Positions 19,684-59,781 of a DNA stretch of 64,000 nt are shown piece by piece. Origin of the DNA: Candidatus Pantoea floridensis. Its GTDB lineage: Bacteria; Pseudomonadota; Gammaproteobacteria; Enterobacterales; Enterobacteriaceae. Each line of letters opens with the position of its first letter. Within the stretch, counting starts at the first letter, position 1. The position numbers were made by a program, and so were the translations under genes. The stretch covers positions 124,001 to 188,000 of the forward strand of contig NZ_OCMY01000001.1 in the NCBI RefSeq assembly GCF_900215435.1. Reading direction: 5' to 3'. The notes beneath the pieces were generated by a model. It saw only the letters and a program-made list of their open reading frames with translations. It had not been told where the DNA came from and ran no database searches.

Positions 19684-19739
19684 GGTGGGCATAAATGCCC
19701 ACCCTACGCAGTTTTGTAGGGCCGGCATTTATGCCGACC
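19684..19739. repeat. Paired-hairpin 3' repeat, copy A (after cheZ)
   Basis: Two hairpins, GGTGGGCAT-AA-ATGCCCACC at 19684-19703 and GGCCGGCAT-TT-ATGCCGACC at 19720-19739 (one mismatch). They are joined by CTAC and GTAG segments that can pair with each other, giving a cloverleaf-like whole. It starts 13 nt after the cheZ stop. It belongs to a family with copies at 24625, 26564, 35056 and 59762. Confidence 0.8.
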
Positions 19740-19752
19740 GCTCGCGGAAAAA

Positions 19753-20394
19753 TTAAAACCCTAAGCTATCCAGCAGGTCATCAACCTGATCCTGGTTCGC
19801 CACCACGCCGGGTGCATTGGCATGGATCTGCGGACCGTTCAGCAGGCTATTGCCCTCTTTACGGGCCGCCGCGTTCGCTTCTGGCATGTTTTCCAGCAGC
19901 ACCATCAGCAGTTGACGTTCGATCTCCTGAATCACATCCATCATGCGCTTGATCACCTGACCGGTAAGGTCCTGGAAATCCTGTGCCATCATGATTTCGA
20001 GCAACTGCTTATTGGTATACGACGTGTGTCCCGGAACGTCAGTCAGGAACTGGCGCGTATCCGAAACCAACTCGCGCGCATCGGTCAGTTCAATCGGATT
20101 TTCAAACCACGCGTCCCAGCGGCCTTTCAGCTGGTTGGCGTTGGCTTCCATTTGGTCCTGGTGTGGCTGCGCGGCTTCAACGCAGTTCAACGCACGTTCA
20201 GCCGCCTGCGCCGTCATTTGCACAACATAGTCCAGACGATCGCGCGCATCAGGAATCGCTTCCGCCGCTTCAGCAATCGCCTGGTCTAACCCGAGCTCAC
20301 GCAGACTGTCACGCAGCATGCGCGTCAGTGAGCCGATGCGGGTAATAATGTCGTGTGCCGAGGCTTCTTCGGTTGATTTCGGAAGGTCGCTCAT
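19753..20394 (-). CDS. cheZ: CheY-P phosphatase CheZ
   Basis: A 213-residue helical protein that speeds dephosphorylation of CheY-P at the receptor array. It closely matches E. coli CheZ. The active-site segment [20 protein letters not shown] includes the essential Asp and Gln, and the C-terminal CheY-binding tail [10 protein letters not shown] is intact. A GTG one codon upstream is in frame; the ATG at 20394 has AGGAG 5 nt away. It is the last gene of the receptor-cheRBYZ unit, 9 nt after cheY. flhB, which follows cheZ in E. coli, is absent. Confidence 0.95.
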
Positions 20395-20403
20395 CACATC
20401 TCC

Positions 20404-20793
20404 TTACATACCCAGTTTTTCGAATATTTTGCCTAACTTCTCTTCCAGCGTGGCGGCAGTGAACGGTTTCACTACGTAGCCACTGGCACCCGCCTGTGCT
20501 GCCGCGATGATGTTTTCTTTCTTCGCTTCGGCAGTCACCATCAGCACCGGCAGTTTACTCAGCGCGGCATCTGCACGAATGGTCTGCAGCAGTTCCAGAC
20601 CGTCCATGTTGGGCATGTTCCAATCAGAGACCACGAAATCAAAGCCGCCAGCACGCAGTTTGGTCAGCGCATCCACGCCGTCTTCTGCTTCTTCGACGTT
20701 ATTGAATCCCAGCTCTTTTAGCAGGTTACGGACGATACGACGCATCGTATTGAAGTCATCCACCACCAAAAAGCGCATATTTTTATCAGCCAT
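20404..20793 (-). CDS. cheY: Chemotaxis response regulator CheY
   Basis: A 129-residue single receiver domain that binds the flagellar switch when phosphorylated by CheA. Acid pocket residues near 12-13 (VVDDFN), phospho-acceptor Asp57 in [12 protein letters not shown], Thr87 in MVTAEAKKE and Lys109 in YVVKPFT are all in place. It is nearly identical in pattern to E. coli CheY, with no output domain. It sits between cheB and cheZ. Confidence 0.97.
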
Positions 20794-20832
20794 ATCTACT
20801 CCTGTGTTGTCTCGTCCAGCAGGACGGGCTCG

Positions 20833-21882
20833 TTAAATTCGCAATGCCTGTCCGGCGCTAATTTTCGCCAGCATGTGCTGACTGATGTGGCCTAAATCGA
20901 CCACTTCACTGGTGCCGCCCATCGCTATCGCTTCGCGCGGCATGCCAAATACCACGCAGCTGGCTTCATCCTGGGCGATGGTCCAGGCACCCGCGCGATG
21001 CATTTCCAGCATCCCGGCCGCGCCGTCATTCCCCATCCCCGTCAGGATCACCCCAACCGCATTTCGTCCTGCATGGATCGCCACCGAACGGAACAACACA
21101 TCCACCGAGGGCTTGTGTCGGTTCACCGGCGGACCGTCATTCAGTTTCACCACATAGTTGGCGCCACTGCGCCCCAGTTCCATGTGCATTGCGCCCGGCG
21201 CGATATAGGCATGGCCCGGCAAAATACGCTCGCCATCCTCCGCTTCTTTCACGGTGATCTGGCACAGCTTGTTCAGCCGCTCGGCAAACGAGCGGGTAAA
21301 CCCTGGCGGCATATGTTGCGTAATCAGCAGTGCCGGGCTGGTGGCCGGCAGCGGCTGGAGTACGTGGCGAATCGCCTCGGTGCCGCCGGTGGAAGAGCCG
21401 ATGGCAATCAGCTTTTCGCTACTCAGCAGTGGACCGGCCTTAAGCGTCACCGGCATCGGCGAGGCCGCACGCGCATGCAGTTTGGCGCGCGCTGCGGCGC
21501 GAATCTTATCGGCAATCATCTGGCTATAGGCCAGCATGCCTTCGCGGATGCCGAGCTGCGGTTTGGTGACGAAATCCACCGCGCCTAACTCCAGCGCGCG
21601 CAGCGTCACTTCAGAGCCTTTGCCGGTCAGTGAAGAGACCATCACCACCGGCATCGGACGCAGGCGCATCAGCTTCTCAAGGAAGTCGAGACCATCCATG
21701 CGCGGCATTTCCACATCCAGCGTTAACACCTGTGGGTTGTATTGTTTGATTAAATCCCGTGCCACCAGCGGATCTGGCGCACTCGCGACCATCTCCATAT
21801 CGGGATGGCTGTTGATGATTTCCGTCATCAGCTGACGCATTAGCGCAGAGTCATCCACGCACATCACGGTGATTTTGCTCAT
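20833..21882 (-). CDS. cheB: Chemoreceptor glutamate methylesterase/deamidase CheB
   Basis: A 349-residue two-domain protein: an N-terminal receiver domain with Asp56 in [12 protein letters not shown], a linker near residues 140-155, and a C-terminal esterase with catalytic Ser in [11 protein letters not shown], His in [13 protein letters not shown] and Asp in [10 protein letters not shown]. It removes methyl groups from receptor glutamates for adaptation and is activated by CheA. It overlaps cheR by 4 nt (ATGA), so the opposing adaptation enzymes are translationally coupled. Confidence 0.96.
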
Positions 21883-22754
21883 CGTCTTTCCTTGCTCAGT
21901 CCATAGACTGTCTGTCCACGCAGCCAGAACTCTTTGCTGATCTGACTAAAGTTCTCTGAATGCCCAGCAAACAACAGGCCGCCGGGTTTCAGCAGGGGCA
22001 CGAAACGGCGCAGAATCTGTTCCTGCGTCTCTTTATCGAAGTAAATCATAACGTTGCGACAAAAAATGGCGTCGAACGGACCGGGCAACGCCCAGTCATG
22101 AGCCAGTAAATTCAGTTGCGTATAGTTCACCATGTTGGCGAGGTCAGGACGCACGCGCACCATGCCTTCGTGCGGACCGGTACCGCGCAGGAAAAAGCGC
22201 TGCAGCTGCGACTGCGACAAGGTGCGCAGCTCTTCCTGGCGATAGACGCCGGCAACGGCTTTTTCTAACACCTGCGTATCGATATCGCTGGCATGCACCT
22301 GGAACTTGCCCGGGCCGGTGCCCAGCGTTTCTGCCAGCGTCATGGCAATGGAGTATGGCTCTTCGCCCGTTGAGGCGGCCGTGCTCCAGACGCTGTAATT
22401 ACCCGTACGCTTGCGCGCATGTTCCGCGAGGATCGGAAAGTGGTGCGCCTCGCGGAAGAAGGAGGTCAGGTTGGTGGTCAGCGCATTGATAAATGCCTGC
22501 CACTCCGCACTGTTTTGGTCCTGTTCCAGCAGCGCCAGATAGCGGCCAAAGTCATCAATATTCAGCATACGCAGGCGACGCACTAAACGGTTGTAAACCA
22601 TCTCGCGCTTATGGTCGGCCAGCACAATGCCCGCTCGCTGATAGATCAGCTGGCTAATACGACGAAAATGAGTATCCGAGAGCGGTAAACGCTGCACCAT
22701 TTGCGAGAGCAGCGTTGTCGCTTCACTTTGATCCAATAACGTCGATTTCTTCAT
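21879..22754 (-). CDS. cheR: Chemoreceptor glutamate methyltransferase CheR
   Basis: A 291-residue SAM-dependent methyltransferase that methylates receptor glutamates. It has the N-terminal helical domain with basic [15 protein letters not shown] (receptor contact), [10 protein letters not shown], the SAM-binding [16 protein letters not shown], and [14 protein letters not shown]. It docks to the NWETF pentapeptide found at the end of all three receptors in this window. The ATG lies 103 nt after the receptor gene upstream, a gap that contains a GC-rich hairpin. Confidence 0.96.
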
Positions 22755-22832
22755 TTCAGGTCACCCGGCAACAAACTGATTAAATTGTGATACTGCGGTT
22801 GCTACTGTGCTGCCAGTCGCGCCATGCTTAGG

Positions 22833-22850
22833 GGCCGCCCTGCGGCGGCC
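22833..22850 (-). other. GC-rich hairpin between the serine-type receptor gene and cheR
   Basis: GGCCGCC-CTGC-GGCGGCC, a perfect 7-bp stem with a 4-nt loop, 7 nt after the receptor stop. There is no U-tract. It may tune expression or mRNA stability between the abundant receptor and low-abundance cheR. Confidence 0.55.
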
Positions 22851-22857
22851 ACAAGGG

Positions 22858-24537
22858 TTAAAAGGTTTCCCAGTTATCGTCAGAGCTACGTGCGCCTGCG
22901 GGTTGTGCCAGTGTTTTTGGCGCTACCGAACGCAAATTTTTTGCCGCTGTAGATACGTTAACGGCCTGAACGACAAATTCTTTACCAATATTGAACACCG
23001 CAACCGACTGTTTCAGTCGACTTGCCTGATCTTCCAGCGCGGCGGCGGCAGTGGCAGACTCCTCAACCAACGCGGCGTTCTGCTGCGTGACGCGATCCAT
23101 CTCATTCACCGCCAGTCCAACCTGATCGATACCACGACTCTGCTCGTCCGACGCCGAGGCGATTTCGCCCATGATGTCGGTGACGCGCGTGACCGCATTC
23201 ACGATATGCGTCATGGTTTCGCCAGCGCTCTCTACCAGCACTGAGCCGGTGTTGACGCGGCTAACCGAGTCTTCAATCAAGGCTTTAATCTCTTTGGCCG
23301 CTTGCGCACTGCGCTGTGCCAGGCTGCGCACTTCACCCGCCACCACAGCAAAACCACGGCCCTGCTCACCGGCGCGCGCGGCTTCAACCGCTGCGTTCAG
23401 TGCGAGGATGTTGGTCTGGAAGGCGATGCCATCAATCACGCTAATGATGTCAGCGATTTTCTTCGAACTGCCGGTAATCTCTTTCATGGTAGTAACCACG
23501 CCATCCACCACTTTGCCGCCCTGCTGCGCAGTTTCTGAGGCGGTTAGCGCCAGCTTCGATGCCTGGCGGGCGTTTTCCGCGTTCTGTTTCACCGTGGCGG
23601 TAAGCTGCTCCATGCTGGCCGCTGTCTCTTCCAGCGAGGCCGCCTGCTGCTCGGTACGCGAGGAGAGATCGTTATTGCCCATGGCGATTTCGCTGGCACC
23701 GGTATAAATGGCATCGGAGCCATCACGTACGGTACGCACCGTACTCGCCAGCGCTTGCTGCATCTCTTGCAGCGAAGTGAGCAACTCGCCCATCTCATTG
23801 CGCACGTTGATTTCCACCTGCTGCGTCAAGTCACCGCGGGCGATATGACGGATATGCTCGATGCTCTGCTTCAGCGGACGGATCAGCACGCTGCGCATAC
23901 CGCTCCATACCAACGCAATCACCAGCAAGGTCACCAGCAACGTGCCAACCACCAGCATGATGGATTGGCTGTAGGCCGCGTTATTGGACTCCACCCCTTT
24001 ATTGGCCAGCACGATGTTGTAGGCCATCCACGCGTTGTAATCTTTAGCAAATTTGTCCTGGAATCCTTGCGTCGGCTGATCGACAAATCCTTTGAAATTC
24101 CCGCTTCCCAGGAAATCGATCAGCTCGCTCAGCGCCCCACGATAGGCGTTGTAGTTGGCCTGCAGCGTCAGCACGTTTTCCGCCGTTTTGCCCTTTTCGG
24201 ACAAATTGGCGTTAAATTCGGCGAACCCCGCATCCGCGTTTTTCAACTCCTCACTTGCCAGCGCCACCAGATCTTTTACGGTAGCGCCCGATCCTGCCTG
24301 CTGGCTGTCCAGCAGATAGCGGATCCCCGCACGGTTTAGCGTATTACGCGCCTGCACCAGCGATACCCATGAGGTGCCCATCGCCCGCTGCAGCGTGCTG
24401 AGACGCTGGTTATAGGCAAAATTATCTTTATCGGCTTTCACCGTGGAATAGAACACTCCCCCCGAAAACAGCTGCAGTAAGGCAAACAGCGCCAGCACAA
24501 ACAGCAGACCGGAAACAACACGAATACGACTAAACAT
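22858..24537 (-). CDS. Methyl-accepting chemotaxis protein, Tsr-like (serine type)
   Basis: A 559-residue transmembrane receptor: TM1 near residues 10-30, periplasmic TarH four-helix domain, TM2 near 190-210, HAMP, and methylated signalling helices with the conserved hairpin tip ([20 protein letters not shown]). The ligand domain keeps the Tsr pattern [10 protein letters not shown] with the amino-acid-binding Arg and Asn, and [11 protein letters not shown], so serine or a similar amino acid is the likely ligand. The C-terminus DDNWETF is the CheR/CheB docking tether. The frame extends to 24636, but the ATG at 24537 begins the TM1 region and lies downstream of a near-consensus sigma-28 promoter. 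Confidence 0.92.
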
Positions 24538-24568
24538 AAACACCTCATTGGTTGGCGGAACGCTCCTG

Positions 24569-24595
24569 TTATCGGCGTATGCGAGGGGATCTTTA
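24569..24595 (-). promoter_or_regulatory. Sigma-28 (FliA) promoter of the Tsr-like receptor gene
   Basis: On the minus strand TAAAGATC-N11-GCCGATAA. The -10 is a perfect match to the flagellar consensus and the -35 matches 6 of 8 of TAAAGTTT. Confidence 0.88.
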
Positions 24596-24624
24596 TGTGT
24601 GTTCGTGGAGGGAAAGAGGAAGGA

Positions 24625-24690
24625 GGTCGCCATCAATGGCGACCCTGCGGCTGAAGTACCGATTTCGTAGGGTCGGCATGTATGCCGACC
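24625..24690. repeat. Paired-hairpin 3' repeat, copy B
   Basis: Perfect hairpins GGTCGCCAT-CA-ATGGCGACC (24625-24644) and GGTCGGCAT-GT-ATGCCGACC (24671-24690), linked by CTGCG and CGTAG segments. It begins 12 nt after the stop of the receptor gene at 24703. Same family as copy A. Confidence 0.85.
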
Positions 24691-24702
24691 TGCTACTCAG
24701 CG

Positions 24703-26367
24703 TTAAAACGTTTCCCAGTTACCGTCGCTGACCGGCGCGGCAACCACTTTGCGCGGCGCGTTGATGACCTGACGCGCGAGGGGAGTTTTGACCGGCTGAG
24801 CCTGCGATGCACGCGGAATGCGGAACACCGACACCGACTGGCTGAGACGGCTGGCCTGCTCTTCCAGCGAAGCGGCGGCGGCGGCGGACTCTTCCACCAG
24901 TGAGGCATTCTGCTGCGTAACGCGATCCATCTCGGTTACCGCTTGCCCTACCTGGTCGATGCCACGGCTCTGCTCATCGGAAGCCGAGGCAATTTCACCC
25001 ATGATATCGGTGACACGCGTCACCGCGCCGACGATATCATTCATGGTTTCACCAGCGGTGCCTACCAGCTGAGAGCCGTTATTCACGCGATTAACTGAAT
25101 CTTCAATCAGCCCTTTGATCTCTTTCGCCGCCTGGGCGCTGCGCTGTGCGAGGTTACGCACTTCACCGGCCACCACCGCAAAGCCACGGCCCTGCTCACC
25201 GGCACGCGCCGCTTCCACTGCCGCGTTCAGTGCCAGGATATTGGTCTGGAAGGCAATGCCATCGATCACACTGATAATATCGGCGATTTTCTTCGAGCTA
25301 CCGGCAATGTCATGCATGGTACGGACAACGCCATCCACCACTTCTCCGCCTTTGCGCGCGGTATCAGAAGCGCTTAGCGCCAGCTGTGATGCCTGACGCG
25401 CATTCTCGGCGTTCTGTTTCACCGTGGCAGTCAGCTGTTCCATGCTGGCGGCCGTTTGCTCCAGCGACGCGGCTTGCTCTTCGGTACGCGCCGATAGATC
25501 GTTGTTCCCGGCAGAAATTTCGCTGGCGCCCGTGAAAATGGCGTCGGAACCATCACGCACATTGCTTACGGTGCTAACCAGCGACTGCTGCATCTCATGC
25601 AGGCTGCTCGCCAGCTGGCTCATTTCGTTACGTCCTTCCACCGCAATGGTTTGGGTAAGATCGCCCGCCGCGATATGACGAATATGTCCCAGTAATTGAT
25701 GCAGCGGCTGGATCAGCACGCTGCGCAGGCCAAACCAGCAGCCGATAATGACCACCACGACAACCAGCGCAACCGCCGCCAATAGCCACATCATGGTCTG
25801 GAAAGCACGCTGATTTTGCGCCACGCCTTCCGCTGCCAGCTCACTTTGCGCGCTGCGCCACTCTTCGTAGGTGGCTTTCATTGCCACCTGTTTGGTTTCG
25901 ATATTTTGCGCAAACATGCCTTGTAGATCGTTCGCCTTCAGGCGTTCCAGCATCGCTTTCAGCCCGTCGTTAAACGCAGCGTAGTTGGCTTCTAACTTAT
26001 CGCGCAGCGCCTGCGGCAAGCCCGGCGTGGCGGGCAAACTGGCATAACGCTGATAATGGCCCGCGGCGACATCGAGCTGTTTTTCGGTTTGCGCAATCAG
26101 CGCGCCGAGCTGACCGCCGTTAGCCTGCGCGGCCATGGTGCCTTGCATACGCAACATGGCGCGATTCAGTACCGTGCGCGTTTGATTCAGTTCGATCCAG
26201 GCATCGGACATCGCTGCCACGTTGTTGCTTGAGATCTGCGCAACGGCAAATGCCTCTTTATCCTTTTGTAATGCGGACCAGAACAGCCCGCCAGAAAATA
26301 ACTGCAAAGCACCAAAAACCAGCAATACGACGATTAAACTGGTCACAACATTGATTCGTTTTAACAT
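24703..26367 (-). CDS. Methyl-accepting chemotaxis protein (TarH family), second receptor
   Basis: A 554-residue receptor with the same layout as its neighbours: TM1 about residues 10-30, periplasmic TarH domain, TM2 about 190-212, HAMP and a standard signalling domain ending DGNWETF. The ligand-helix segment reads [19 protein letters not shown]: the Arg equivalent to Tar/Tsr Arg64 is kept but nearby residues differ from both Tar and Tsr, so the ligand is uncertain. The cytoplasmic half is almost the same as the receptor at 26637, pointing to duplication followed by ligand-domain divergence. It has its own sigma-28-like promoter. Confidence 0.9.
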
Positions 26368-26400
26368 GGGGTCTCCAGAAATGTGTTTCGGCTCCCCCAG

Positions 26401-26427
26401 TTATCGACCGGCAACCTGAATTTTTCA
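26401..26427 (-). promoter_or_regulatory. Sigma-28-like promoter of the second receptor gene
   Basis: Minus strand TGAAAAAT-N11-GTCGATAA. The -10 differs from GCCGATAA by one base; the -35 is weak (4 of 8). Spacing is correct and it lies 33 bp before the start codon. Confidence 0.65.
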
Positions 26428-26503
26428 GGGTGCCCATGCGACTTTACGAATTAAAATTCTGTGTTTTAGTGTGATTGCAGTGTTTTATAACTAAAGAAAT
26501 TAA

Positions 26504-26548
26504 CACTAAAAAAAATGCGCCTTTATCGGGTGAGCGATAAAGGCGCAT
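26504..26548 (-). terminator. Intrinsic terminator between the third and second receptor genes
   Basis: A perfect 14-bp stem (26515-26528 with 26535-26548), ATGCGCCTTTATCG/CGATAAAGGCGCAT, followed on the minus strand by a long T-run. It separates the receptor gene at 26637 from that at 24703. Confidence 0.9.
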
Positions 26549-26563
26549 TTTCAGGGTTGTTCT

Positions 26564-26622
26564 GGTCGCCATGAATGGCGACCCTACGGGTCAATCGTGT
26601 CCGGTCGGCATTGATGCTGACC
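26564..26622. repeat. Paired-hairpin 3' repeat, copy C
   Basis: GGTCGCCAT-GA-ATGGCGACC at 26564-26583 followed by CTACG, then GGTCGGCAT-TG-ATGCTGACC at 26603-26622 (one G-T type mismatch). The GTAG partner before the second arm has decayed. It begins 14 nt after the stop of the receptor gene at 26637. Confidence 0.8.
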
Positions 26623-26636
26623 GGACTTTCAGCGAA

Positions 26637-28316: not shown

Positions 28317-28355
28317 AGCTTGCCCTGGAAAATGAAGAAAAATCGTACAGAGCAG

Positions 28356-28382
28356 TTATCGACTGAGCGGCTGGAATATTGA
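28356..28382 (-). promoter_or_regulatory. Sigma-28-like promoter of the third receptor gene
   Basis: Minus strand TCAATATT-N11-GTCGATAA, one mismatch in the -10 and 5 of 8 matches in the -35, about 40 bp before the start codon. Confidence 0.68.
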
Positions 28383-28449
28383 GGAAAAACGCGGGTATTT
28401 TACTGTTTTCTTGTTTACTAACAAAGAATTAGTTCATAGACGTGATGAT

Positions 28450-28473
28450 AACGGGCCGCCGCAGCGACCCGTT
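28450..28473 (-). terminator. Hairpin after cheW
   Basis: AACGGGCCGC and GCGACCCGTT form a 10-bp stem with one mismatch and a 4-nt loop, 6 nt after the cheW stop. It lacks a U-tract, so it may be a weak terminator or 3' stabiliser. Confidence 0.5.
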
Positions 28474-28479
28474 GGTTTC

Positions 28480-28977
28480 TTACGCGGAGCGCAGGTTGTC
28501 CACCAGCGCCATCTCTTCGCTGCTCAGCAGCTTTTCGATGTCGACCAGAATCAGCATGCGTTCACCCAACGCGCCAAGGCCGGTGAGGTATTCGGTAGAC
28601 ATGGTGACAGCAAATTCCGGTGCCGGGCGAATCTGCTCTTGCGTCAGCGACAGCACATCCGAAACGCCGTCAACCACAATACCCACCACGCGCTGAACCA
28701 GATTCAGCACGATAACCACGGTATTTTCGTTATATTCCACATCCGGCTGCGAGAATTTCACTCGCAGGTCGATAATTGGCACGATCACGCCGCGCAAATT
28801 GGTGACGCCTTTGATGAACTCTGGCGTATTGGCGATGCGGGTGACCTGATCGTAGCCGCGGATCTCCTGCACTTTCAGAATGTCGATGCCGTACTCTTCG
28901 TCACCCAGAGTGAAAACTAAGAATTCCTGGCCAACGGTTTCGCCAGCGATTTTGGTCACGGTTGCCATGTCAGTCAT
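28480..28977 (-). CDS. cheW: Chemotaxis coupling protein CheW
   Basis: A 165-residue SH3-like adaptor that links receptors to CheA in the signalling array, colinear with E. coli CheW (167 aa). Conserved blocks are [33 protein letters not shown] (the family core), [13 protein letters not shown] with the Arg needed for receptor contact, and [13 protein letters not shown]. The start MTDM parallels MTGM in E. coli. It follows cheA after 22 nt in the motAB-cheAW operon. Confidence 0.96.
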
Positions 28978-28999
28978 TTTTTTACCCTTTGGTTATCTA

Positions 29000-30988: not shown

Positions 30989-30992
30989 GGGA

Positions 30993-33014: not shown

Positions 33015-33040
33015 GGATGTTTTCCACGATGCGAACAAAC

Positions 33041-34296: not shown

Positions 34297-35055
34297 CTTT
34301 TAAGGCAAATTTTTTTCTGAAACCTTCAGCATCGCTTTTATGTTGTGCGTTTTTTGTACGAATTCGAATTGTTTCCTTAATATTTCATCGACGCAACACC
34401 GGTTTTAGTCTCTGCCGGAGATTGCCATTACCACACGATCAGTTATCTGCCCATCTGCACTATTAGTGCTATATCCCGCTACAATAGCCGTTATATGCAG
34501 GATAATACTCCGAAACAGAGCGAAATTATTCGCTTCTAAATTAATCACTTACAGGGAATATTGCCTGCAAGCACCATTACTATGCCGCAAGCGAAGCGTG
34601 AAGACTGGGCGCGCTGCGCCAGGGAACTGTCAGTAGATCGTAGGGAGTGTTTAGCGTACGACAGGGTATGTAACAGAGCGTTACATTAGAGAAATGAATG
34701 AATCAGCGGATTTGCGGTTTATCTCACGATAACTATCGGCGTGCCACGACGAATCTTTAGGGTTGCGACAAAAAAAAGCGCTTTTTGCCGTTTGACTGCC
34801 TGCTTTTTAACCAAAATGTGCTTTTTTTCTGATGTGTCAGCCCATTACGGCATTAAGAAATGAAATCGATTTCGTCAGGTTATGGTGGCGCGTGAAAACG
34901 CTTTGCAGTACAGCGGGCAGCAGGACACGATTCAGGCTAATAAAGTGGCAGGCTGCAAATGGAGAGCTAGTGGTTTGTGGAGTATGCGATGCGTGTAGAG
35001 CCACCATTGTTGGCGTAATGCCGCTCACTTAAGCAAAAAAATGCCTGTTTATGCA

Positions 35056-35123
35056 GGTGCGCATGAATGCGCACCCTACGAAAACCCGGCGATATCCACG
35101 TAGGGTCACCATTAATGGTGACC
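35056..35123. repeat. Paired-hairpin 3' repeat, copy D
   Basis: Perfect hairpins GGTGCGCAT-GA-ATGCGCACC (35056-35075) and GGTCACCAT-TA-ATGGTGACC (35104-35123), joined by CTACG and CGTAG segments that can pair. It lies 65 nt after the otsA stop. The two stems differ from each other and from other copies, yet stay fully paired. Confidence 0.85.
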
Positions 35124-35188
35124 GATTCATGCTTAACTGACGAGCATTACACCATTGTTGGCGGCCCTACATGACCAAAGGGTCTGTC

Positions 35189-43141: not shown

Positions 43142-43569
43142 CTTTTACCTCCTGAGAATATGGGCTTACGCTTGCTTCTCAGTGTTAACTATAGATCATC
43201 GGCTTCCCGCCTTACGCAGCGCGTGCTGCAACGATACTGCGGTATTATCGGGTAATGGTTGTCAGTTAAGACATGAAAACCCTCATTACCGAGAGCACAC
43301 CTTGTAGCGGCGCAATGTATTGCGCGATAAATCGCGCCGCTACGGAAGGTGCGGTGATGTGAGACGGCGCTTAACTGTTCGGCATTACGGTATTATCGGG
43401 TCATTGAGTAAGAAGATAAAGATCGACGCCGTTGCTGCGCGCATTTGTTAACAGTAATCGCCTGTTTTCTTGGGTTTTTGTTACTAACACGCTATGGTAA
43501 GTGCCCTTCGGTCATGATTGTGATGACCGACGATAAGGTTAATAACAAGAATGAGAAAGGATAGCTGGC
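43142..43569. other. Intergenic region carrying a candidate miniature element
   Basis: A 428-bp non-coding stretch. Its middle is occupied by the 135-bp candidate element at 43253-43387 with flanking direct repeats. The right part, from 43402, leads to the acetyltransferase gene and is plain AT-rich promoter DNA. Confidence 0.55.
43240..43400. mobile_element. Candidate MITE-like element with 13-bp direct repeats
   Basis: CGGTATTATCGGG occurs at 43240-43252 and again at 43388-43400. Between them, the 135-bp segment starts TAATGGTTGTCAGTTAAG and ends CTTAACTGTTCGGCATTA, an 18-bp imperfect terminal inverted repeat (13 of 18 match). At its centre (43304-43343) is a three-way structure: GTAGCGGCGC/GCGCCGCTAC as outer stem and two inner hairpins (GCGCAATGTATTGCGC and GCGCGATAAATCGCGC). 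No coding capacity. Inferred from structure only; no transposase is nearby. Confidence 0.5.
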
Positions 43570-50541: not shown

Positions 50542-50549
50542 CCTGCAGA

Positions 50550-50572
50550 GGGCGGAGCAATTCACTCCGCCC
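50550..50572. terminator. Hairpin between the small peptide gene and katE
   Basis: GGGCGGAG/CTCCGCCC stem with a 7-nt loop, followed on the plus strand by ACGGCTTTTA. Shared by two convergent genes. Confidence 0.7.
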
Positions 50573-50579
50573 ACGGCTT

Positions 50580-52844: not shown

Positions 52845-53165
52845 GTCACATGCTCCTTCAGGTTAAGACCCCATTAACTGTAGAGCATAAAATCAGAAAG
52901 ATTGCCGCTTCATGTATAAATGATGCGCGAATGAATCAATAACATTGATTTAAAGAGGCGTAATTTTAAACGAAGCGTTTAATTATTTTTTTAGACTTAC
53001 TCGTTCAGTCACTAAATACCCGTTTCGCTTAGGTTGACTTGACGCAAATAATAGCTTGTCAGAGTGGATTAATCAGGGACATCTCTTTTCTGATTGCAGG
53101 CCGGGTTAATCGTCACGGTCGACATCGCGTAAAGGATGGCGACCGTGGCGCCACAAGCGGGCAAT
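52845..53165. other. Intergenic region: katE promoter and dehydrogenase 3' end
   Basis: A 321-bp AT-rich stretch with the katE promoter on the left. On the right, CACGGTCG (53114-53121) pairs with CGACCGTG (53140-53147) to form a hairpin 18 nt after the dehydrogenase stop, probably its 3' end. No gene seen. Confidence 0.5.
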
Positions 53166-54299
53166 TTAGGGTTTAAGGATAACCTTGGTCCAGCCATCGT
53201 CGCGATCGTCAAAATGACGGTAGCCGTCGGGCCCCTCTTCCAACGATAAGCGATGAGAGATAATACTGCCCGGCTGAGCTTTACCTGTTGCAATTAGCCG
53301 GGCTAACTGGCGGTTATACGCTTTTACATTCGCCTGGCCAGTACGAATTGACTGCCCTTTAAACCAGAAGCTACCAAAATCAAACGGCATTTTACCGACC
53401 TTTGCCAGCTCACTGGCTGCGTTTGGATCCTGCGGAATAAATACCCCCACCACGCCAATACCGCCGGTTGCTTTGGTCGAGGCGACCAGGCTATTCATCG
53501 TCGCGCTATTGTCTTCATGCCCATGCCGATTACAGCATTGGTAGCCCACACATTCGCAGCCGCAATCCGTACCACGGCCATTGGTCAGCGCAAGAATTTT
53601 CTCAACGGCATCTTCCCCCACGGCATTGATTGCCGTAGCGCCCATTTTCTCTGCCAGCGCAAGACGGTCGGCATGCGTATCCACCACGAAGACCTGTGAC
53701 GCCCCTTTGATCACGGCGGAATGGGCCGCCATCAAGCCTACTGGCCCGGCCCCATAAATGGCTACACTATCGCCGGGCCGCATACCTGCGAGTTCGGTCG
53801 CATGCCAGCCGGTGGGGAAGATATCTGACAACATGACATAATCCTCCTCCTTCTCTTGCGCATCCGAAGGAAGCACAAGGCAATTGAAATCGGCAAAAGG
53901 CACCCGCAGCAGCTCGGCCTGGCCCCCTTCCCAGGCGCCCATCTCGGCAAATCCATAGGCAGCCCCCGCTGTGCCCGGATTGGCTGTCAGGCAGAAGCCG
54001 GTTAAGCCTTTTTCACAGTTTTCACAGAAACCACATCCGACATTAAAAGGCATGCAAACGTAGTCTCCGACCTTGATACGTTCTATTCCGCTGCCAACTT
54101 CAATCACCTCTCCAAGATTTTCATGACCAAAAATACGCCCCTCTTCGAAGCTGGTACGCCCTTCATACATATGTAAATCTGAGCCGCAGATATTCGTGGT
54201 CGTAATACGAATCAGCGCATCTGTTGGGCGGACAATTTTGGCATCCGGTACATTTTTTACCGATACATCAAAAGGTCCGTTATAGACGATAGCTTTCAT
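53166..54299 (-). CDS. Zinc-dependent alcohol dehydrogenase, glutathione-independent formaldehyde dehydrogenase-like
   Basis: A 377-residue medium-chain dehydrogenase. The catalytic zinc site is CGSDLHMYEG with GHENLGEV; the structural zinc Cys cluster is GCGFCENCEKGLTGFC; and the NAD-binding Rossmann motif is GAGPVGLMAA (near residues 182-191). The insert DCGCECVGYQCCNRHGHED is typical of the FdhA (glutathione-independent formaldehyde dehydrogenase) branch, so formaldehyde or a related aldehyde is a likely substrate. AGGA lies 10 nt before the ATG. Single gene between katE and an OB-fold stress protein. Confidence 0.85.
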   Translation of the reverse strand: MKAIVYNGPFDVSVKNVPDAKIVRPTDALIRITTTNICGSDLHMYEGRTSFEEGRIFGHENLGEVIEVGSGIERIKVGDYVCMPFNVGCGFCENCEKGLTGFCLTANPGTAGAAYGFAEMGAWEGGQAELLRVPFADFNCLVLPSDAQEKEEDYVMLSDIFPTGWHATELAGMRPGDSVAIYGAGPVGLMAAHSAVIKGASQVFVVDTHADRLALAEKMGATAINAVGEDAVEKILALTNGRGTDCGCECVGYQCCNRHGHEDNSATMNSLVASTKATGGIGVVGVFIPQDPNAASELAKVGKMPFDFGSFWFKGQSIRTGQANVKAYNRQLARLIATGKAQPGSIISHRLSLEEGPDGYRHFDDRDDGWTKVILKP

Positions 54300-54518
54300 G
54301 CGTTATTGTCCTAATTAATGGGATTTAATTTTAGGTGTGCTAATAAGCGCACCGCGAATGAAATGGCTCGCTTATCCCGATTGATAAAAAAGTCACCTTT
54401 ATACCCTGGCATAAATACTCAGAAGTGGCGTTTGTTATTACCGGTGCGCTTGCAGTGCAATCGTGAATATTTGTGCCAGACTTAATCCAGCATGAACGAA
54501 TAAATCCATGGAGAGACG

Positions 54519-54911
54519 ATGAAACCTATTATTTTGGCTTCGGTAATAATGATGTTTAGTTTAGGTGTGAGTGCCGCTGAAGGTGGATTCAAAGCCGGGG
54601 AAACCCCGCCGCCGCAGAATAAACAGGATGCGGGTTACAAAGGTTCTGAAGATACCGGACAGACCGCAATATCCCAAATACGGGATTTCCGTCAGGGAGG
54701 ATACGTTACGCTGGAGGGATATATCGTCGAAAAATTAAAAGGTGACAGTTACAAATTTCGCGATAACACCGGAAACGTAACAATTATCGCAGATGCAAAG
54801 GCCTTTAAGGGAAAAACCTATTCGGCAGATGACAAAGTCCGCGTCAGCGGAAAAGTGTATGGTCACGGGGAACAAACCACATTAAAAGTCGCGCGTATTG
54901 ATGAGCCCTGA
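54519..54911 (+). CDS. Periplasmic YgiW/YdeI-family (BOF) OB-fold stress protein
   Basis: A 130-residue exported protein. The signal peptide ends near residue 19 (VSA/AEG). The mature part has a polar linker (FKAGETPPPQNKQDAGYKG), then the OB-fold VTLEGYIVEKLKGDSYKFRDNTGNVTIIADAKAFKGKTYSADDKVRVSGKV. The relatives YgiW and YdeI in E. coli and Salmonella help survival under peroxide, acid or peptide stress. GGAGAG precedes the ATG. I cannot separate YgiW from YdeI by eye. Confidence 0.85.
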   Translation: MKPIILASVIMMFSLGVSAAEGGFKAGETPPPQNKQDAGYKGSEDTGQTAISQIRDFRQGGYVTLEGYIVEKLKGDSYKFRDNTGNVTIIADAKAFKGKTYSADDKVRVSGKVYGHGEQTTLKVARIDEP

Positions 54912-54932
54912 AAACCGAGAGTGAAAGGATGA

Positions 54933-54968
54933 AAAATCTGCACCGAAGGGCTTAGCGGTGCAGATTTT
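54933..54968. terminator. Bidirectional terminator after the YgiW/YdeI-like gene
   Basis: A perfect 13-bp stem AAAATCTGCACCG/CGGTGCAGATTTT with a 10-nt loop followed by TTTCTTT. It lies between convergent genes. Confidence 0.88.
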
Positions 54969-54985
54969 CTTTGGCGCCGATTTCA

Positions 54986-55852
54986 TTAGCCTGCGGTTTT
55001 GAGCAAAGCGCGCAACACCACTTCAAGTTCCGTCTCACCCATTACCCGTTCTGCCTGCGGCTTTTCAAAGCAGATCCACTCCTCATTGAAGCCATCGATC
55101 ATCCGCATGCGCGGTAAAGGATGCTGATGCCCCTGCGAACGAAAAATCGCTTCCCACGCATCACGCTCGACGGCTTCCGCAACCACCGGGCGCCCTAGAA
55201 TGGAGGCAAACGTGTTAGCAATGTCGTTGGGTGTCACGCACTGCGGGCCTTCTAACTCAACAATGCGTTTCCCCTGCCACTCTTGCTGCAGCAACATTGC
55301 GGCCAGGGTGCCGACATCAGCGGTGGCGATCATCGGTACCGCTTTATCCAGCGGATGTAAATAGCTGTGAATCACACCATTATCACGCGCAGAGACGACA
55401 TCTAATGCGCAGTTCTCCATAAACCAGCCCGGACGCAGGAAAGTAACCGGCAGATCCAGTGCATTGAGCGCCTGCTCCAGCAGGGTACGCTGGGTTAACA
55501 GGTTCGTTTTCTCGGCCTGAGCACCAATGGTCGAGAGGCAAACCACTTTCTCAGGCGATGCGCAACGAATAGCCTGGACCACTGCATCAATGATGAGGCG
55601 GGCGGCGGGAAATCCCGGCGCGGGATCAAAATCCGACGGGGGAAGAATGAACACGCCAGTCGCACCGTTAAACGCATCGGCCAATGCGCTGGCATCCTTC
55701 ATTTCGGCAAAGGCAACCTCACAGCCCAGGTCCTGCCACTGGGCGGCCTTACTGACATCTCGCATTACGCCGCGCACGGGAAGATTGTTGCTGAGTAAGG
55801 CGCGCGCAACTGCGCCGCCAACCTTTCCGGTAATACCAGTGATCACATACAT
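54986..55852 (-). CDS. NmrA-like NAD(P)-binding atypical SDR
   Basis: A 288-residue Rossmann protein of the NmrA/QOR2 type. The nucleotide-binding motif is VITGITGKVGGAVARALL at the N-terminus; the adenine-end RGVMRDVSKA and the central RPGWFMENCA follow. It lacks the YxxxK catalytic pair of classic SDRs, so it may be a quinone/aldehyde reductase or a redox sensor. It is divergent from the adjacent lysR gene across 129 bp, the typical setup of a LysR regulator and its target. Confidence 0.82.
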   Translation of the reverse strand: MYVITGITGKVGGAVARALLSNNLPVRGVMRDVSKAAQWQDLGCEVAFAEMKDASALADAFNGATGVFILPPSDFDPAPGFPAARLIIDAVVQAIRCASPEKVVCLSTIGAQAEKTNLLTQRTLLEQALNALDLPVTFLRPGWFMENCALDVVSARDNGVIHSYLHPLDKAVPMIATADVGTLAAMLLQQEWQGKRIVELEGPQCVTPNDIANTFASILGRPVVAEAVERDAWEAIFRSQGHQHPLPRMRMIDGFNEEWICFEKPQAERVMGETELEVVLRALLKTAG

Positions 55853-55981
55853 GGGTTAATTTCCTGTTTGCTTAAAGAAACGGTACGGACGGCAGTATAG
55901 GAAACCCGGTTAATTGACAGAATGCACATCGACTCATTACTTTGATGACATAGAATCACCCTGCGTATGTGAGAAATTTTG

Positions 55982-56893
55982 ATGAGCATTGATGGCCGTT
56001 TGTTGTCAAATATCAGCGTGTTAGCCGCTATCGTACACAGCGGCAGTTTTGCTCGCGCGGCTGACGCGCTCAATTTGTCGCCCTCTGGCGTGAGTCGTGC
56101 GGTGACACGTCTGGAAACCAGCATCGGCGTACGACTGTTTGACAGAACCACCCGCGCCGTCACCCTGACAGATGAGGGGCGGACACTGTATGAAGAGATA
56201 AGCCCATTGCTGGCGGGCATTGGCGATGCGGTGAGTCTGGCCTCCGGCGCTTCCACCGCGATACATGGGCGGCTGCGCATTAATGTTGATCCCTTTTTCT
56301 CACGCCACATTCTGGCGCCGCATATTGATAGGTTTATGCAGCGCTATCCGGAGATTGCTCTGGAGCTGGTGGTGCGCGATCGGCTTGGCGATATGGTGGC
56401 TGAAGGTTTTGATATTGCCGTGCGCTTTGGGCATCCACCCACGTCTTCGCTGGTTGCACGCAAGCTACTGGAGACGCGCACGGTGACGGTCGCATCGCCA
56501 GACTATGTGCGTCAGCATGGCCAACCTGCCACACCTGACGATCTGGCTCATCACGCCTGTATCCAGATGAAAAGCACCATGACCGGGTTGCCGCTCGAGT
56601 GGGAGTACCGTTTAAATGGCGACGTGGTTGCGGCCAAAATTTCCAGCCGCCTGATGGTCAATGAATCCGGCACGCTGCTCGCGGCCTGTCTGGCGGGTGC
56701 CGGTATTGCGCGCATCAAAGCCAGCGGTATTGAAACGCTGCTTGCTGAAGGCCGCTTAGTAGAATTACTCACCGAATGGCAAGGCGAGCGTTTTCCGCTT
56801 TACGCCTTGTATCCTTCGCGGCACCTTCCCCCTGCCAAAGTGCGTGCCTTCATCGACTTTGTTATCCCGCTACTGAACGCTGAGCGTCAATGA
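55982..56893 (+). CDS. LysR-family transcriptional regulator
   Basis: A 303-residue LTTR. The N-terminal winged HTH reads LSNISVLAAIVHSGSFARAADALNLSPSGVSRAVTRLETSIGVRLFDRTTRAVTLTDEG (about residues 8-66). The rest is a substrate-binding domain of the CrgA-like type (LRINVDPFFSRHILAPHIDRF, VRFGHPPTSSLVARKL). The ATG at 55982 follows a TTG in the same frame. It probably controls the divergent NmrA-like gene; the ligand is unknown. It is convergent with the nitronate monooxygenase, with a 16-nt gap. Confidence 0.88.
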   Translation: MSIDGRLLSNISVLAAIVHSGSFARAADALNLSPSGVSRAVTRLETSIGVRLFDRTTRAVTLTDEGRTLYEEISPLLAGIGDAVSLASGASTAIHGRLRINVDPFFSRHILAPHIDRFMQRYPEIALELVVRDRLGDMVAEGFDIAVRFGHPPTSSLVARKLLETRTVTVASPDYVRQHGQPATPDDLAHHACIQMKSTMTGLPLEWEYRLNGDVVAAKISSRLMVNESGTLLAACLAGAGIARIKASGIETLLAEGRLVELLTEWQGERFPLYALYPSRHLPPAKVRAFIDFVIPLLNAERQ

Positions 56894-56909
56894 ACGCGCT
56901 TTTGCCGCC

Positions 56910-57971
56910 TTACGCCGCCTGCCACTCCGCAACGAGCGTTTTCACTAGCTCTGCCGCAGGCATCTCTCGCGCCAGTGCAGCGCCCTGACCGGCCCACTGA
57001 GCACCAAATCCATGATCACCTTTGGCCGCTGCAGCGGCAGCCAGCGCTTTGCCTAGCGCGTAGGCCAGCGGATAAGGCGGAATGGAATCCTGCGCAAATC
57101 CACGCGCCAGGTGGCAAAAATCGTTAGTGATACATCTGGCCGAACGGCCAGAGATGGCCGCAATAATCTCGGTGCTATTGGCCTGCTCGCTGTTTAACGC
57201 CTGACGATAAGCCGCATTGGCGGCTGATTCCGGGCACAAGATAAACGCGGTACCTAACTGTACGCCCGCCACGCCCAGCTTGAGCATGGCAGCAATTCCC
57301 GCACCATCCATCACCCCACCCGCGGCAATTAATGGCAGGCGCGAAACCTTGCGAAGCGTTTGTACCAGCGTAAAGGTGCTGAGCTGCTGATCTTCATCTG
57401 CAGGATTAAACATCCCGCGATGTCCCCCGGCCTCAATGCCCTGCGCGACAATAAAATCGATGTCGGCGGCTTCGATAGCCTGTGCTTCAGCAAGGCTAGT
57501 TGCGCTCGCAAGCGTAATAATGCCGCGGCTTTTCAATCGCTGCACAAATGCGGCGGAAGGTAACCCGAAATGGAAACTCACTGCGGCAGGTGCGTTAGCC
57601 AGCAGCACCTCCAGCATCGCGTCGTTATCGAGGAAAGTTTGATAAATCTCCGACAGCGACGCGGGCAGCGCCGCATCATAACGCTCAAATACGGGCTGGA
57701 AGCGTGTAATCCACGCCTGTTCTAACTGCGCATTGCGCTGTACCGGCGCGTGACAAAAGACGTTGACGTTAATGGGCGCGGAGGTCAGAGAACGTGTTTT
57801 ACGGATCATGATATCCGCCTGCTGCGGCGTTGAAGCACCTACGCTGATCGATCCCAGCGCGCCGCTGTTACTGACCGCCGCCGCCATTTCCGGCGTGGAG
57901 ACGCCCGCCATCGGCGCCTGGATAATCGGATAGGTGAGATTGAGCGTCTGACATAAAGAAGGGTTCATCAT
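56910..57971 (-). CDS. Nitronate monooxygenase (2-nitropropane dioxygenase type)
   Basis: A 353-residue FMN-dependent TIM-barrel enzyme of the NMO/FabK-like family. Motifs: YPIIQAPMAGVSTPEMAAAVSNSGALGSI at the N-terminus, IDFIVAQGIEAGGHRGMF with the catalytic His, PLIAAGGVMDGAGIAAMLKLGVAGVQLGTAFILCPESA for FMN phosphate binding. It oxidises toxic alkyl nitronates. The ATG directly follows the TAA of the upstream ATPase gene; the second ATG at 57968 has better spacing from AGG. Co-transcribed with that ATPase. Confidence 0.88.
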   Translation of the reverse strand: MMNPSLCQTLNLTYPIIQAPMAGVSTPEMAAAVSNSGALGSISVGASTPQQADIMIRKTRSLTSAPINVNVFCHAPVQRNAQLEQAWITRFQPVFERYDAALPASLSEIYQTFLDNDAMLEVLLANAPAAVSFHFGLPSAAFVQRLKSRGIITLASATSLAEAQAIEAADIDFIVAQGIEAGGHRGMFNPADEDQQLSTFTLVQTLRKVSRLPLIAAGGVMDGAGIAAMLKLGVAGVQLGTAFILCPESAANAAYRQALNSEQANSTEIIAAISGRSARCITNDFCHLARGFAQDSIPPYPLAYALGKALAAAAAAKGDHGFGAQWAGQGAALAREMPAAELVKTLVAEWQAA

Positions 57972-58487
57972 TTACCTGCTTAATTCGCTATGCGTTACCA
58001 CGTTAAAGCCCTCTTCACTCTGGGGCGCAACGAAGTAGCTGCTGATCAGCGCAAACTGCGCATCGGTTGCGGCGAAGTCATGCTGCCCGCTGGCGTTGCG
58101 CGCATGCAGGCGTGTTTTACACACGTCATCGGGCACATCAAGATAATGGAGCTGATGCTCTGCCCCGGCGCTGTGGATCACCGCCTTCATCCACTGCCGT
58201 TGATTGACAGTATTGGCTGGAAAATCCAGCACGACCGAAACGCCACGCTGCAACAAGGCGATCAGGTGCGGCGTCATCGCGTTACGCAACTTACCCGCAC
58301 AACGCAAATAATCAGCCACATCATGCATCTCTTCGGCAAATAGATGGGCCAACCACGCATCCTCGCTGACGATCACCGCACCCGTGTGCTGCGCCAGCTG
58401 ATGGGCCAACGTTGATTTCCCGGCAGCAATTTTGCCACAAAGCAGATGTAAGGTCGGGCGGGATGTCGATGCGCACACAGATTCCAT
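57972..58487 (-). CDS. Small P-loop kinase-like ATPase (zeta-toxin/AAA type)
   Basis: A protein of about 171 residues with a Walker A GKIAAGKST near residues 20-28, a switch region VIVSEDAWLAHLF, and VSVVLDFPANTVNQRQWM as the Walker B-like strand. This layout is common in small-molecule kinases and zeta-toxin-like proteins; no partner antitoxin is present, so a metabolic kinase is more likely. The frame opens at 58520, but GGAG 8 nt before the ATG at 58487 supports the later start. Its stop abuts the monooxygenase ATG. Confidence 0.72.
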   Translation of the reverse strand: MESVCASTSRPTLHLLCGKIAAGKSTLAHQLAQHTGAVIVSEDAWLAHLFAEEMHDVADYLRCAGKLRNAMTPHLIALLQRGVSVVLDFPANTVNQRQWMKAVIHSAGAEHQLHYLDVPDDVCKTRLHARNASGQHDFAATDAQFALISSYFVAPQSEEGFNVVTHSELSR

Positions 58488-58593
58488 AAAACAGCTCCAG
58501 ATAAGATGACGCATTAACATGCCGCGAAATTGCCGCCCAGTAAAGGCTGGCAGCTACACTTAGAACATCGCTACCTACAACAGGAGAAGCCCG

Positions 58594-59148
58594 ATGCATA
58601 AAATCGACTTTCCGGTCAGCAAAGCGCGGAAATATCTGGAGCCGGGTCCGGTGGTATTAGTGAGTTCTCAGTATGAGGATCGACGCGACATCATGACGCT
58701 CGGCTGGCACACCATTCTGGAATTTTCGCCGTCGCTGGTTGGCTGCATGATCGCTGGCGGCAACCACAGCCATGAACTGATCCGCCAGAGCGGCCAGTGC
58801 GTGATCAACGTCCCATCGGCGGATCTGGTCGACAACGTGGTGGCGATTGGTAATAGCCACGGCGATCGCCTTGATAAGTTTGATGCCTTTAAACTGACGC
58901 CTGAACCGGCAAGCGTGGTCAATGTCCCGTTAATTAATGAGTGTTTTGCCAGCTTTGAGTGTCAGCTGTATGACGATTCGATGGTGAATAATTACAACTT
59001 CTTCATTTTCGAGATCGTTAAAGCGCATGTCACCGAAACGCCAGAGTTTCCGCCCACGTTACACTACACGGGCGAAGGCCGCTTTAGCGTGATGAGCAAA
59101 TTACTGCTCGATAAGCGCGATGACTTTAAGCCAGAAATGTTAATTTAA
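58594..59148 (+). CDS. Flavin reductase-like FMN-binding protein
   Basis: A 184-residue protein of the flavin reductase/split-barrel family. Family features are PGPVVLVSSQYEDRRDIMTLGWHTILEFSPSLVGCMI, HSHELIRQSGQCVINVPSADL, and FASFECQLYDDSMVNNYNFFIFEIVKAH. These bind FMN and usually reduce flavin with NAD(P)H or act as redox sensors. AGGAG lies 7 nt before the ATG. It is divergent from the kinase-monooxygenase pair and could supply reduced flavin, which is an inference. Confidence 0.82.
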   Translation: MHKIDFPVSKARKYLEPGPVVLVSSQYEDRRDIMTLGWHTILEFSPSLVGCMIAGGNHSHELIRQSGQCVINVPSADLVDNVVAIGNSHGDRLDKFDAFKLTPEPASVVNVPLINECFASFECQLYDDSMVNNYNFFIFEIVKAHVTETPEFPPTLHYTGEGRFSVMSKLLLDKRDDFKPEMLI

Positions 59149-59212
59149 CTGCTTGAATTGCTATAGGCTTGACCCCACTTTGATGCTTTCGCCCTGACAG
59201 GAGTAAAAAACA

Positions 59213-59749
59213 ATGGCAACCGAATATGCGGTGATCGCCGGTGGCTGTTTCTGGTGTACCGAAGCAGTTTTTAAAGATGTGATTGGCGTGGAGTCAGTCG
59301 AGAGCGGTTATACCGGCGGCGCACGTCCGAATCCGACTTATGAGCAAGTGTGCAGCGGCGCTACGGGCCACGCGGAGGCGATTCGCATTGGTTTCGATCC
59401 GGCGCAGGTGAGCTATGGCGATCTGCTGGATATTAGCTTTGCTACCCACGATCCAACCCAGCTGAACCGCCAGGGTAACGATATTGGCACGCAATACCGT
59501 TCGGCGATTTTCCCCGCCAACCCCGAGCAGGAAGCCGAAGCGATTGCCGCCATTGCGCGCGCGCAGGAAGGCCTGAGCGATCCGGTGGTGACCACCATCG
59601 AGCCGCTGAAAGAGTGGTATGCGGCGGAAGGATATCATCAGGATTATTGGGAAGGCGCCGGGCAGCGCAACGGTTACTGCATGGCGGTGATTCCACCGAA
59701 ATTGCAGAAGCTGCGTAAGAGCTTTGCTAATCGCGTTAAATCGAGTTAA
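59213..59749 (+). CDS. msrA: Peptide methionine sulfoxide reductase MsrA
   Basis: A 178-residue MsrA of the short type. The catalytic motif [11 protein letters not shown] lies near residues 10-20, with the substrate-binding Glu/Tyr stretch [27 protein letters not shown]-terminal Cys in GYCMAVIPP may act as the resolving residue. It reduces Met-S-sulfoxide in proteins with thioredoxin. It lacks the N-terminal extension of the 212-aa E. coli MsrA, so a second, longer copy may exist elsewhere. Fits the oxidative-stress neighbourhood with katE. Confidence 0.93.
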
Positions 59750-59761
59750 TTCCGAACCCCA

Positions 59762-59781
59762 GGTGCGCGTACATGCGCACC
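59762..59781. repeat. Paired-hairpin 3' repeat, copy E (one arm decayed)
   Basis: GGTGCGCGT-AC-ATGCGCACC followed by CTAC, beginning 12 nt after the msrA stop. The expected GTAG and second hairpin are degenerate. Same family as copies A-D. Confidence 0.75.

Follow-up and report, generated by a model that had tools for sequence, protein, structure and literature searches.

Introduction

Repetitive extragenic palindromes (REPs), the REP-associated tyrosine transposases (RAYTs), miniature inverted-repeat transposable elements (MITEs) and insertion sequences (IS elements) that target REPs are each known already. They meet in a stretch of 64,000 nucleotides from Candidatus Pantoea floridensis, positions 124001-188000 of contig 1 (NZ_OCMY01000001.1) of a 5.45-Mb genome (G000), to which I will refer as the window. 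Five sites in it, A to E, carry related hairpins close to the ends of genes. Sites A, B, C and E are very probably GTAG-tagged REPs of Pantoea spread by a RAYT, and site D the cargo of an IS4-type MITE that inserted into an older REP.

The hairpins have their closest described relatives in the GTAG-tagged REPs and bacterial interspersed mosaic elements (BIMEs) of Di Nocera et al. (2013, PMC3733652), with which they share the GTAG tag, the palindrome and the head-to-head dimers. Many of those families also prefer heterodimers (section 14 suggests SbcCD protection as the reason) and lie at gene 3' ends, within 20 bp of the stop (section 15), and many of the species have a RAYT gene nearby. The main text of that work does not mention Pantoea and confines the enterobacterial family GTAG-3 to enterocluster 1; the likeness is drawn from the descriptions in its text. 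The REP doublets forming hairpins (REPINs) of PMC3116915 are similar in that an inverted REP doublet with its spacer forms the unit and a RAYT is the proposed mover. They differ in that those doublets are described as random in extragenic space, whereas the Pantoea REPs favor gene 3' ends, and in that here 16 of 75 head-to-head pairs adjoin a MITE end and the RAYT gene of G000 is truncated.

Insertion at the axis of a REP palindrome has been described for IS elements by Tobes and Pareja (2006, PMC1525189), among them ISRm22, of the IS4 family. Those are full IS elements, whereas the one considered here is short, non-autonomous and REP-carrying, and makes new targets. As described in PMC2266710, the IS4 subgroup has -AATR ends (TAATGCC...), direct repeats of about 10-13 bp and, in some members, strong target-arm specificity, all of which resembles the Pantoea MITE; the latter differs in its length (134 bp), its lack of a transposase gene, its cargo of a REP dimer and its target-site duplication (TSD) of 13-14 bp. 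REP dimers within longer inverted repeats are known from Anabaena variabilis (GTAG-15) and H. neapolitanus (CGTC-1), for which section 7 of PMC3733652 mentions neither duplicated targets nor transposon ends, nor any insertion into REPs. Among the literature matches listed, whose coverage leaves out most subscription journals, the combination of IS4-type MITE, REP cargo and REP target is described in no title or abstract opening.

REPs in the Window and Beyond

A preliminary description of the window, made from the sequence, reported the five hairpin sites beside the genes for CheZ, two chemoreceptors, OtsA and MsrA, with offsets of 13, 12, 14, 65 and 12 nt from the respective stop codons. The sites, genes and offsets are all as reported, and the nine arms are among 12 matches in the window to GGTnnnCATnnATGnnnACC (up to two mismatches), whereas 100 shuffled sequences gave 2.05 on average and never more than 5. 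Read from its tag, each arm is a REP unit, GTAG-GGTnnnCATnnATGnnnACC, with a 9-bp stem and a 2-nt loop after the tag. The arms belong to a family of GTAG-tagged REPs, GTAGGGTnnnCATnnATGnnnACC, and the paired sites are two such units head to head.

Site A consists of a unit on the minus strand (19684-19707), an exact match reading GTAGGGTGGGCATTTATGCCCACC, and one on the plus strand (19716-19739) with one mismatch to the consensus, 13 nt from the cheZ stop (19753). Site B has its minus-strand unit, with the tag GCAG, at 24625-24648 and its plus-strand unit at 24667-24690, where 12 nt separate it from the stop codon of one chemoreceptor gene; at site C the corresponding units are at 26564-26587 and at 26599-26622, and the latter, whose tag is degenerate (GTCC), has a distance of 14 nt to the stop codon of the second chemoreceptor gene. 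The two units of site D (35056-35079, minus strand; 35100-35123, plus strand) are separated by a 20-nt spacer and are the cargo of the MITE described below. Site E, 12 nt past the msrA stop, is a single minus-strand unit (59762-59785) without a second arm, and blastn at an E-value of 10−6 matched only site E itself. The paired-hairpin plan proposed for all five stands as regards the arms, with corrections for the tag of B, the start of C, the single unit of E and the position of D inside a larger repeat. RNA folding is strong at the sites (z from -3.6 to -8.2), and a scan of the window against Rfam gave no family at the gathering threshold.

A genome-wide search with the exact pattern found the family in high copy, with 371 exact copies in G000 as compared to none of the pattern read backwards. 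The family thus agrees with what defines GTAG-tagged REPs, namely a palindromic sequence, 20-40 bp long, that has the GTAG tag on one side and is present in high copy. It occurs in 21 of 61 genomes of the genus, in 1 to 703 exact copies each. All 12 carriers among 60 genomes over 25 genera belong to Pantoea, and so do the only two among 246 genomes over 154 genera of the family. Of the 20 best matches to the cheZ locus, 19 are named Pantoea, the top one being P. endophytica at 99%. (A genome of that species, L021, was considered as an empty site for A and proved unusable, the sequence past cheZ being different there.) No REP-like unit was found in 35 of the 36 cheZ loci of other species that were examined, out of 80 retrieved, and the sole exception carries another REP class. 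A GTAG-tagged palindrome of another class, GTAGGGGCGGCGTTCTCGCCGCCC, is also found near cheZ in Winslowiella arboricola (L055), at about 14124-14183 and 20247.

Arrangement, Pairing and Placement

Arrangement and placement were assessed around 83 of 100 listed copies, in 80 stretches each some 4 kb long, plus the window, which contributes two more. The listed copies are exact ones on the plus strand of contig 1, up to 2.55 Mb, of which 85 are thereby covered and the last 14 and one other left out. This sample contains 193 units in 93 clusters, most commonly simple head-to-head pairs (60 clusters). The partners in a pair tend to differ: neighboring head-to-head units have the same stem class in 8 of 75 cases, while 5000 shuffles gave a mean of 23.2 and never fewer than 11. 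The preference for heterodimers stands when MITE-associated pairs are set aside (8 of 59, as compared to 20.7 and a minimum of 10).

The three variable positions of the stem are fully paired in 126 of the 137 units that match the pattern exactly (2000 shuffles: mean 46.8, maximum 63), and the remaining 11 have one mismatch each, none having two. Eight different fully paired triplet classes are present, the commonest being GCG (54 units) and CGC (53), together with one-sided forms such as CGC/GTG (5 units), which bridges CGC and CAC. Compensatory change in the stem, noted at first in nine arms, is thus borne out on a larger scale. The conclusion once drawn from it, that the fold must be selected, is too strong, because copying by a hairpin-recognizing transposase or template-switch correction would give the same pattern. 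Since the copies are not independent events, the covariation shows that pairing has been kept, not by which process.

For placement relative to genes, genes were called by a home-made codon score trained on 25 open reading frames (ORFs) of the window, clusters less than 500 nt from the end of a stretch were dropped, and the two of the 93 clusters that overlap a called gene were excluded from distances. Of the other 91, 45 lie in tandem gaps, 45 in convergent gaps and one in a divergent gap, so that the family, like other GTAG-tagged REPs, is intergenic and mostly not between divergent genes, whose gaps account for 2506 of the 10569 intergenic bp of the window. In 47 of 90 clusters the outer edge of the hairpin has a distance of 0-15 nt to the closest stop codon, as compared to 31.9 (sd 3.1, maximum 43) when clusters are placed at random in the same gaps. 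For 41 of the 45 clusters in tandem gaps, the stop of the upstream gene is nearer than the start of the downstream gene. Among clusters without MITE ends, the near-stop excess is found in tandem gaps (19 of 39, versus 5.6 expected and a maximum of 14) and not in convergent gaps (25 of 34 versus 23.7). In the 18 clusters associated with MITEs the distance has a median of 59 nt, and they show no clear near-stop excess (3 of 17 versus 2.4).

These results favor one suggestion of the preliminary description, a REP-like element with a preference in placement, which is supported by the GTAG tag, the head-to-head dimers, the hundreds of copies, the 3'-end bias and a REP-flanked RAYT-like gene (see below). 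They do not favor two others. The regular offset of 12-14 nt from stop codons applies genome-wide to 9 of 90 clusters, within a broad spread over 0-30 nt, and the idea of a terminator is not supported by the T content: at least five T are present in the 8 nt past the element in 8 of 90 cases (mean 2.46 T), and in a control stretch further downstream in 5 of 90 (mean 1.98 T).

A MITE at Site D

When the retrieved DNA was searched with site D, the repeat proved to span about 34994-35170. Aligned, repeats of this type consist of a REP dimer within arms that end GTAATGC...GCATTAC, and outside the arm ends there is a REP core on both sides, variable among copies yet the same on the left as on the right. 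Site D is carried by an IS4-type MITE of 134 bp with TAATGC...GCATTA ends (35016-35149, plus strand). Its left terminal inverted repeat (35016-35033, plus strand) has no mismatch to TAATGCNNNTCANTTAAG, and its right one (35132-35149, minus strand) likewise has none. The element is bounded by the two copies of a 14-bp target duplication, CACCATTGTTGGCG, at 35002-35015 and 35150-35163, which represents the core of the host REP, itself degenerate. The last letters of that REP, CTAC, reach 35170, which leaves 18 nt to the stop of otsA (35189); D has its odd offset of 65 nt because the MITE that surrounds it was inserted there.

The pattern of IS4-like ends, with up to three mismatches, occurs 92 times in the genome, as compared to 11 times for the pattern read backwards. 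The G000 DNA retrieved because it contained a REP, matched D or had an IS4-like end includes 26 complete MITEs, and the fractions that follow hold for that sample. The length is 132-136 bp in 23 copies (range 93-164). Like other MITEs these elements are short, without a transposase gene, and have the terminal inverted repeats of a parent IS, in this case ends as in Pantoea IS4 and in E. coli IS4, whose own ends are TAATGCCAGTCAGTTAAG and TAATGCCGATCAGTTAAG and whose duplication is 12 bp.

A duplication of 13-14 bp with at most one mismatch is found in 17 of the 26; as the target is palindromic, the end of the duplication can be placed in more than one way. The joined flanks form a class-1 REP in 19 copies and a class-2 REP in three, so that 22 of the 26 lie in REPs, at the axis of symmetry, where a REP is accepted if at most 4 of 16 positions differ from class 1, or at most 3 of 16 from class 2 (a baseline of random sites was run for palindromy only). 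In 20 of the 26 duplications at least five of seven palindromic pairs are formed, while random 14-mers of the window average 1.77. A REP dimer or unit lies inside every one of the 26, of class 1 in 18, class 2 in seven and both in one. Seen from the side of the REPs, 16 of the 75 sampled head-to-head pairs have an IS4-like end within 30 nt, six of them on both sides, and dimers with a similar 20-nt spacer occur both with and without MITE arms.

The window has a second MITE of the same kind (43253-43387, plus strand), which carries a dimer of another REP class (GTAGCGGCGCAATGTATTGCGC... / GTAGCGGCG...). Its 13-bp duplication, CGGTATTATCGGG, at 43240-43252 and 43388-43400, represents a target that is not a REP. 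No match to this element was found in E. coli genomes.

Empty and Filled Sites

Four MITE copies on the 742-kb contig 2 were compared with plasmids of Pantoea sp. BRR-3P (NZ_CP155067.1) and Pantoea sp. SOD02 (NZ_CP102605.1). Around these copies the BRR-3P plasmid is 98-99% identical, but at 106827, 315610 and 622952 it has no MITE and one REP core instead of two; at 315610 the adjoining REP unit differs as well. The MITE at 3518 is shared by BRR-3P. At 622952 the REP dimer that received the MITE is of the type that the MITE itself carries. SOD02, whose hits have coordinates identical to those in G004, has none of the four, and at 3518 it lacks the REP too. With SOD02 as the outgroup, gain in the lineage of the window is the simplest reading for the three sites.

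RAYT-Like Genes

Genes matching the profile NF047646 were found in 11 of the 61 genomes of the genus, with scores of 60-71 bits. (A match of 24 bits in G061 and a second match, also of 24 bits, in G019 were not counted.) The same 11 genomes are recovered with the G004 protein as query. PF01797 has no match in G000, which suggested that its REPs were orphans; that idea was rejected, since the RAYT of E. coli (L101), which does match NF047646, matches no Pfam family at an E-value of 0.001, and PF01797 can therefore miss RAYTs.

The RAYT-like gene is flanked by the REP class of sites A-E in G000, G004, G006 and G028, as is known of RAYT genes and their own GTAG-tagged REPs, and its frame is open in the last three. 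One unit of that class also stands beside the RAYT-like gene of G001, near a contig end. Units of the form GTAGGGG...CCC flank the genes of G019 (L110) and G062 (L107), and GTAGCGGCG units those of G023 (L112) and G064 (L115), and RAYT and REP class may thus change together; for G030 and G071 the test for flanking REPs found none. The HUH motif is present, as H-L-H, in all seven aligned Pantoea proteins and x-Y-I-x-x-N-P in six, the protein of G000 ending before it. I take the catalytic Tyr to lie in this xYIxxNP stretch. The G000 frame stops ahead of it at 123 residues, with an in-frame TAA. The search for a RAYT gene in the same genome, one of the checks proposed at the outset, was thus successful as to a gene flanked by these REPs but not as to its completeness.

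RAYT-like genes and the REP of sites A-E occur together, in that 8 of 11 genomes with the gene carry the REP, as compared to 13 of the 50 others (Fisher p 0.005, uncorrected for kinship).

IS4 Transposases and Their Targets

The IS4 domain PF13006 (Nterm_IS4) is present in five of the 61 genomes, and the ORFs tested in G074 and G006 are IS4 transposases by NCBIfam. All 11 Pantoea IS4 copies considered have perfect duplications of 10-14 bp at the apex of a palindrome, with 9-14 of 14 pairs formed. (One of the 11, in G030, is 691 bp long; L263, L266 and L267 were excluded for want of a clean pair of ends or as a duplicate element.) Two of the targets are class-2 REPs and nine are hairpins, mostly terminator-like. 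Hairpin apices thus seem to be what the Pantoea IS4 group targets, and REPs are common among such hairpins here.

Discussion

A RAYT-like transposase of the HUH/tyrosine type, encoded at the REP-flanked locus, would copy REP dimers by way of single-stranded hairpins. Insertions away from gene 3' ends would mostly be lost, and copies survive mainly downstream of stop codons. Past otsA, the 134-bp MITE carrying D entered an older REP at its apex, so that the 14-bp palindromic core of that REP is now present twice, and the mover was presumably an IS4-subgroup transposase with a preference for hairpin apices. Each such insertion adds two REPs and splits one. IS4-type transposition would then be a second route of REP multiplication, independent of RAYT, in which the insertions are seen directly and the part of the transposase is deduced from the ends and duplications.

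Several results weigh against this account. On the side of the RAYT, the scores of 60-71 bits fall under the curated cut-off of NF047646 at 80 (the best is 70.6, and none of the 61 genomes has a protein above it), for which reason the genes are called RAYT-like. No RAYT is detectable in 13 of the 21 REP carriers, including one with 330 copies, and three of the eight carriers that have one (G019, G023, G064) have it beside another REP class. The number of REP copies is not significantly higher in carriers with the gene (Mann-Whitney p 0.16). On the side of the MITE, PF13006 has no match in G000, so that nothing now visible there could move it, though a more distant transposase may exist. With the RAYT truncated as well, both routes may now be silent in this genome. 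The eight IS4 copies of G074 (L260, L265, L268-L273) lie at mostly terminator-like hairpin apices and none in the 22 REPs of that genome, and the E. coli IS4 site is no palindrome (5 of 14 pairs); in view of both, the most that can be claimed as a target rule for this clade is a hairpin apex. By the thresholds used, four of the 26 MITEs, including the copy at 43253, are outside REPs, and nine have no duplication within one mismatch. The TSD of 13-14 bp is also slightly longer than in published members of the IS4 subgroup, where it is 10-13 bp (PMC2266710).

It might be supposed that the hairpins are mainly functional elements of the 3' untranslated region, stabilizing mRNA or stalling ribosomes within 15 nt of the stop, with the fold under selection and mobility secondary. 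The strong folding at the sites and the near-stop excess, both overall and in tandem gaps, agree with such a role, and REPs of E. coli less than 16 nt from a stop lower translation, as cited in PMC12306157. I consider it unlikely nonetheless. The absence of REP-like units from nearly all of the cheZ loci examined in other species speaks against a conserved role near sites A-C, 40 of the 61 genomes of the genus manage without an exact copy, convergent gaps show no near-stop excess, there is no clear T run of the terminator type, and a 3'-end bias is also expected where insertions into genes and promoters are purged. A rather more plausible proposal, one that I would still put below even chances, concerns the stems alone: the compensatory changes may have come from template-switch correction of imperfect palindromes, or from the copying of perfect ones, and not from selection on the fold. 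The single mismatches in 11 units with no unit having two fit such a process, and the predominance of GCG and CGC indicates that many units are copies and not independent changes. As against that, there are eight distinct paired classes, and the one-sided CGC/GTG form, linking CGC and CAC, fits a stepwise path.

A different objection is directed at the MITE. The repeat around D could be a longer REP mosaic, a BIME, whose outer arms merely resemble inverted repeats, with no transposon involved. The outer sequences are themselves REP cores, and REP dimers in longer palindromes elsewhere are not called transposons (PMC3733652, section 7). Yet the left and right flanks match one another and co-vary between copies, there are sites where the core is single and the MITE absent, the 43253 copy has a duplication that is not a REP, and the ends match those of IS4 from E. 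coli, all of which makes the mosaic very improbable.

REP spread is thought to depend on RAYT, yet in this genus most genomes with these REPs lack a detectable one. Here a second carrier of REPs can be seen, and since its empty and filled sites occur in sequences 98-99% identical, the question is directly testable. The MITE is a mobile element that makes its own preferred targets. It is conceivable, though I hold it only tentatively, that MITE and REPs form a self-feeding pair, each jump adding two landing sites, and that multiplication independent of RAYT could sustain REPs in the 13 carriers without that gene. Complete MITE-like copies are present in five of those 13 (G018, G034, G066, G079 and G083).

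The polymorphic MITE sites named above may be used for comparing Pantoea strains. Contig 2 of G000 contains, in addition, an apparent tandem array at 564078-564409 (L281), in which four MITE-type ends share one orientation and follow each other at intervals of about 103 nt.

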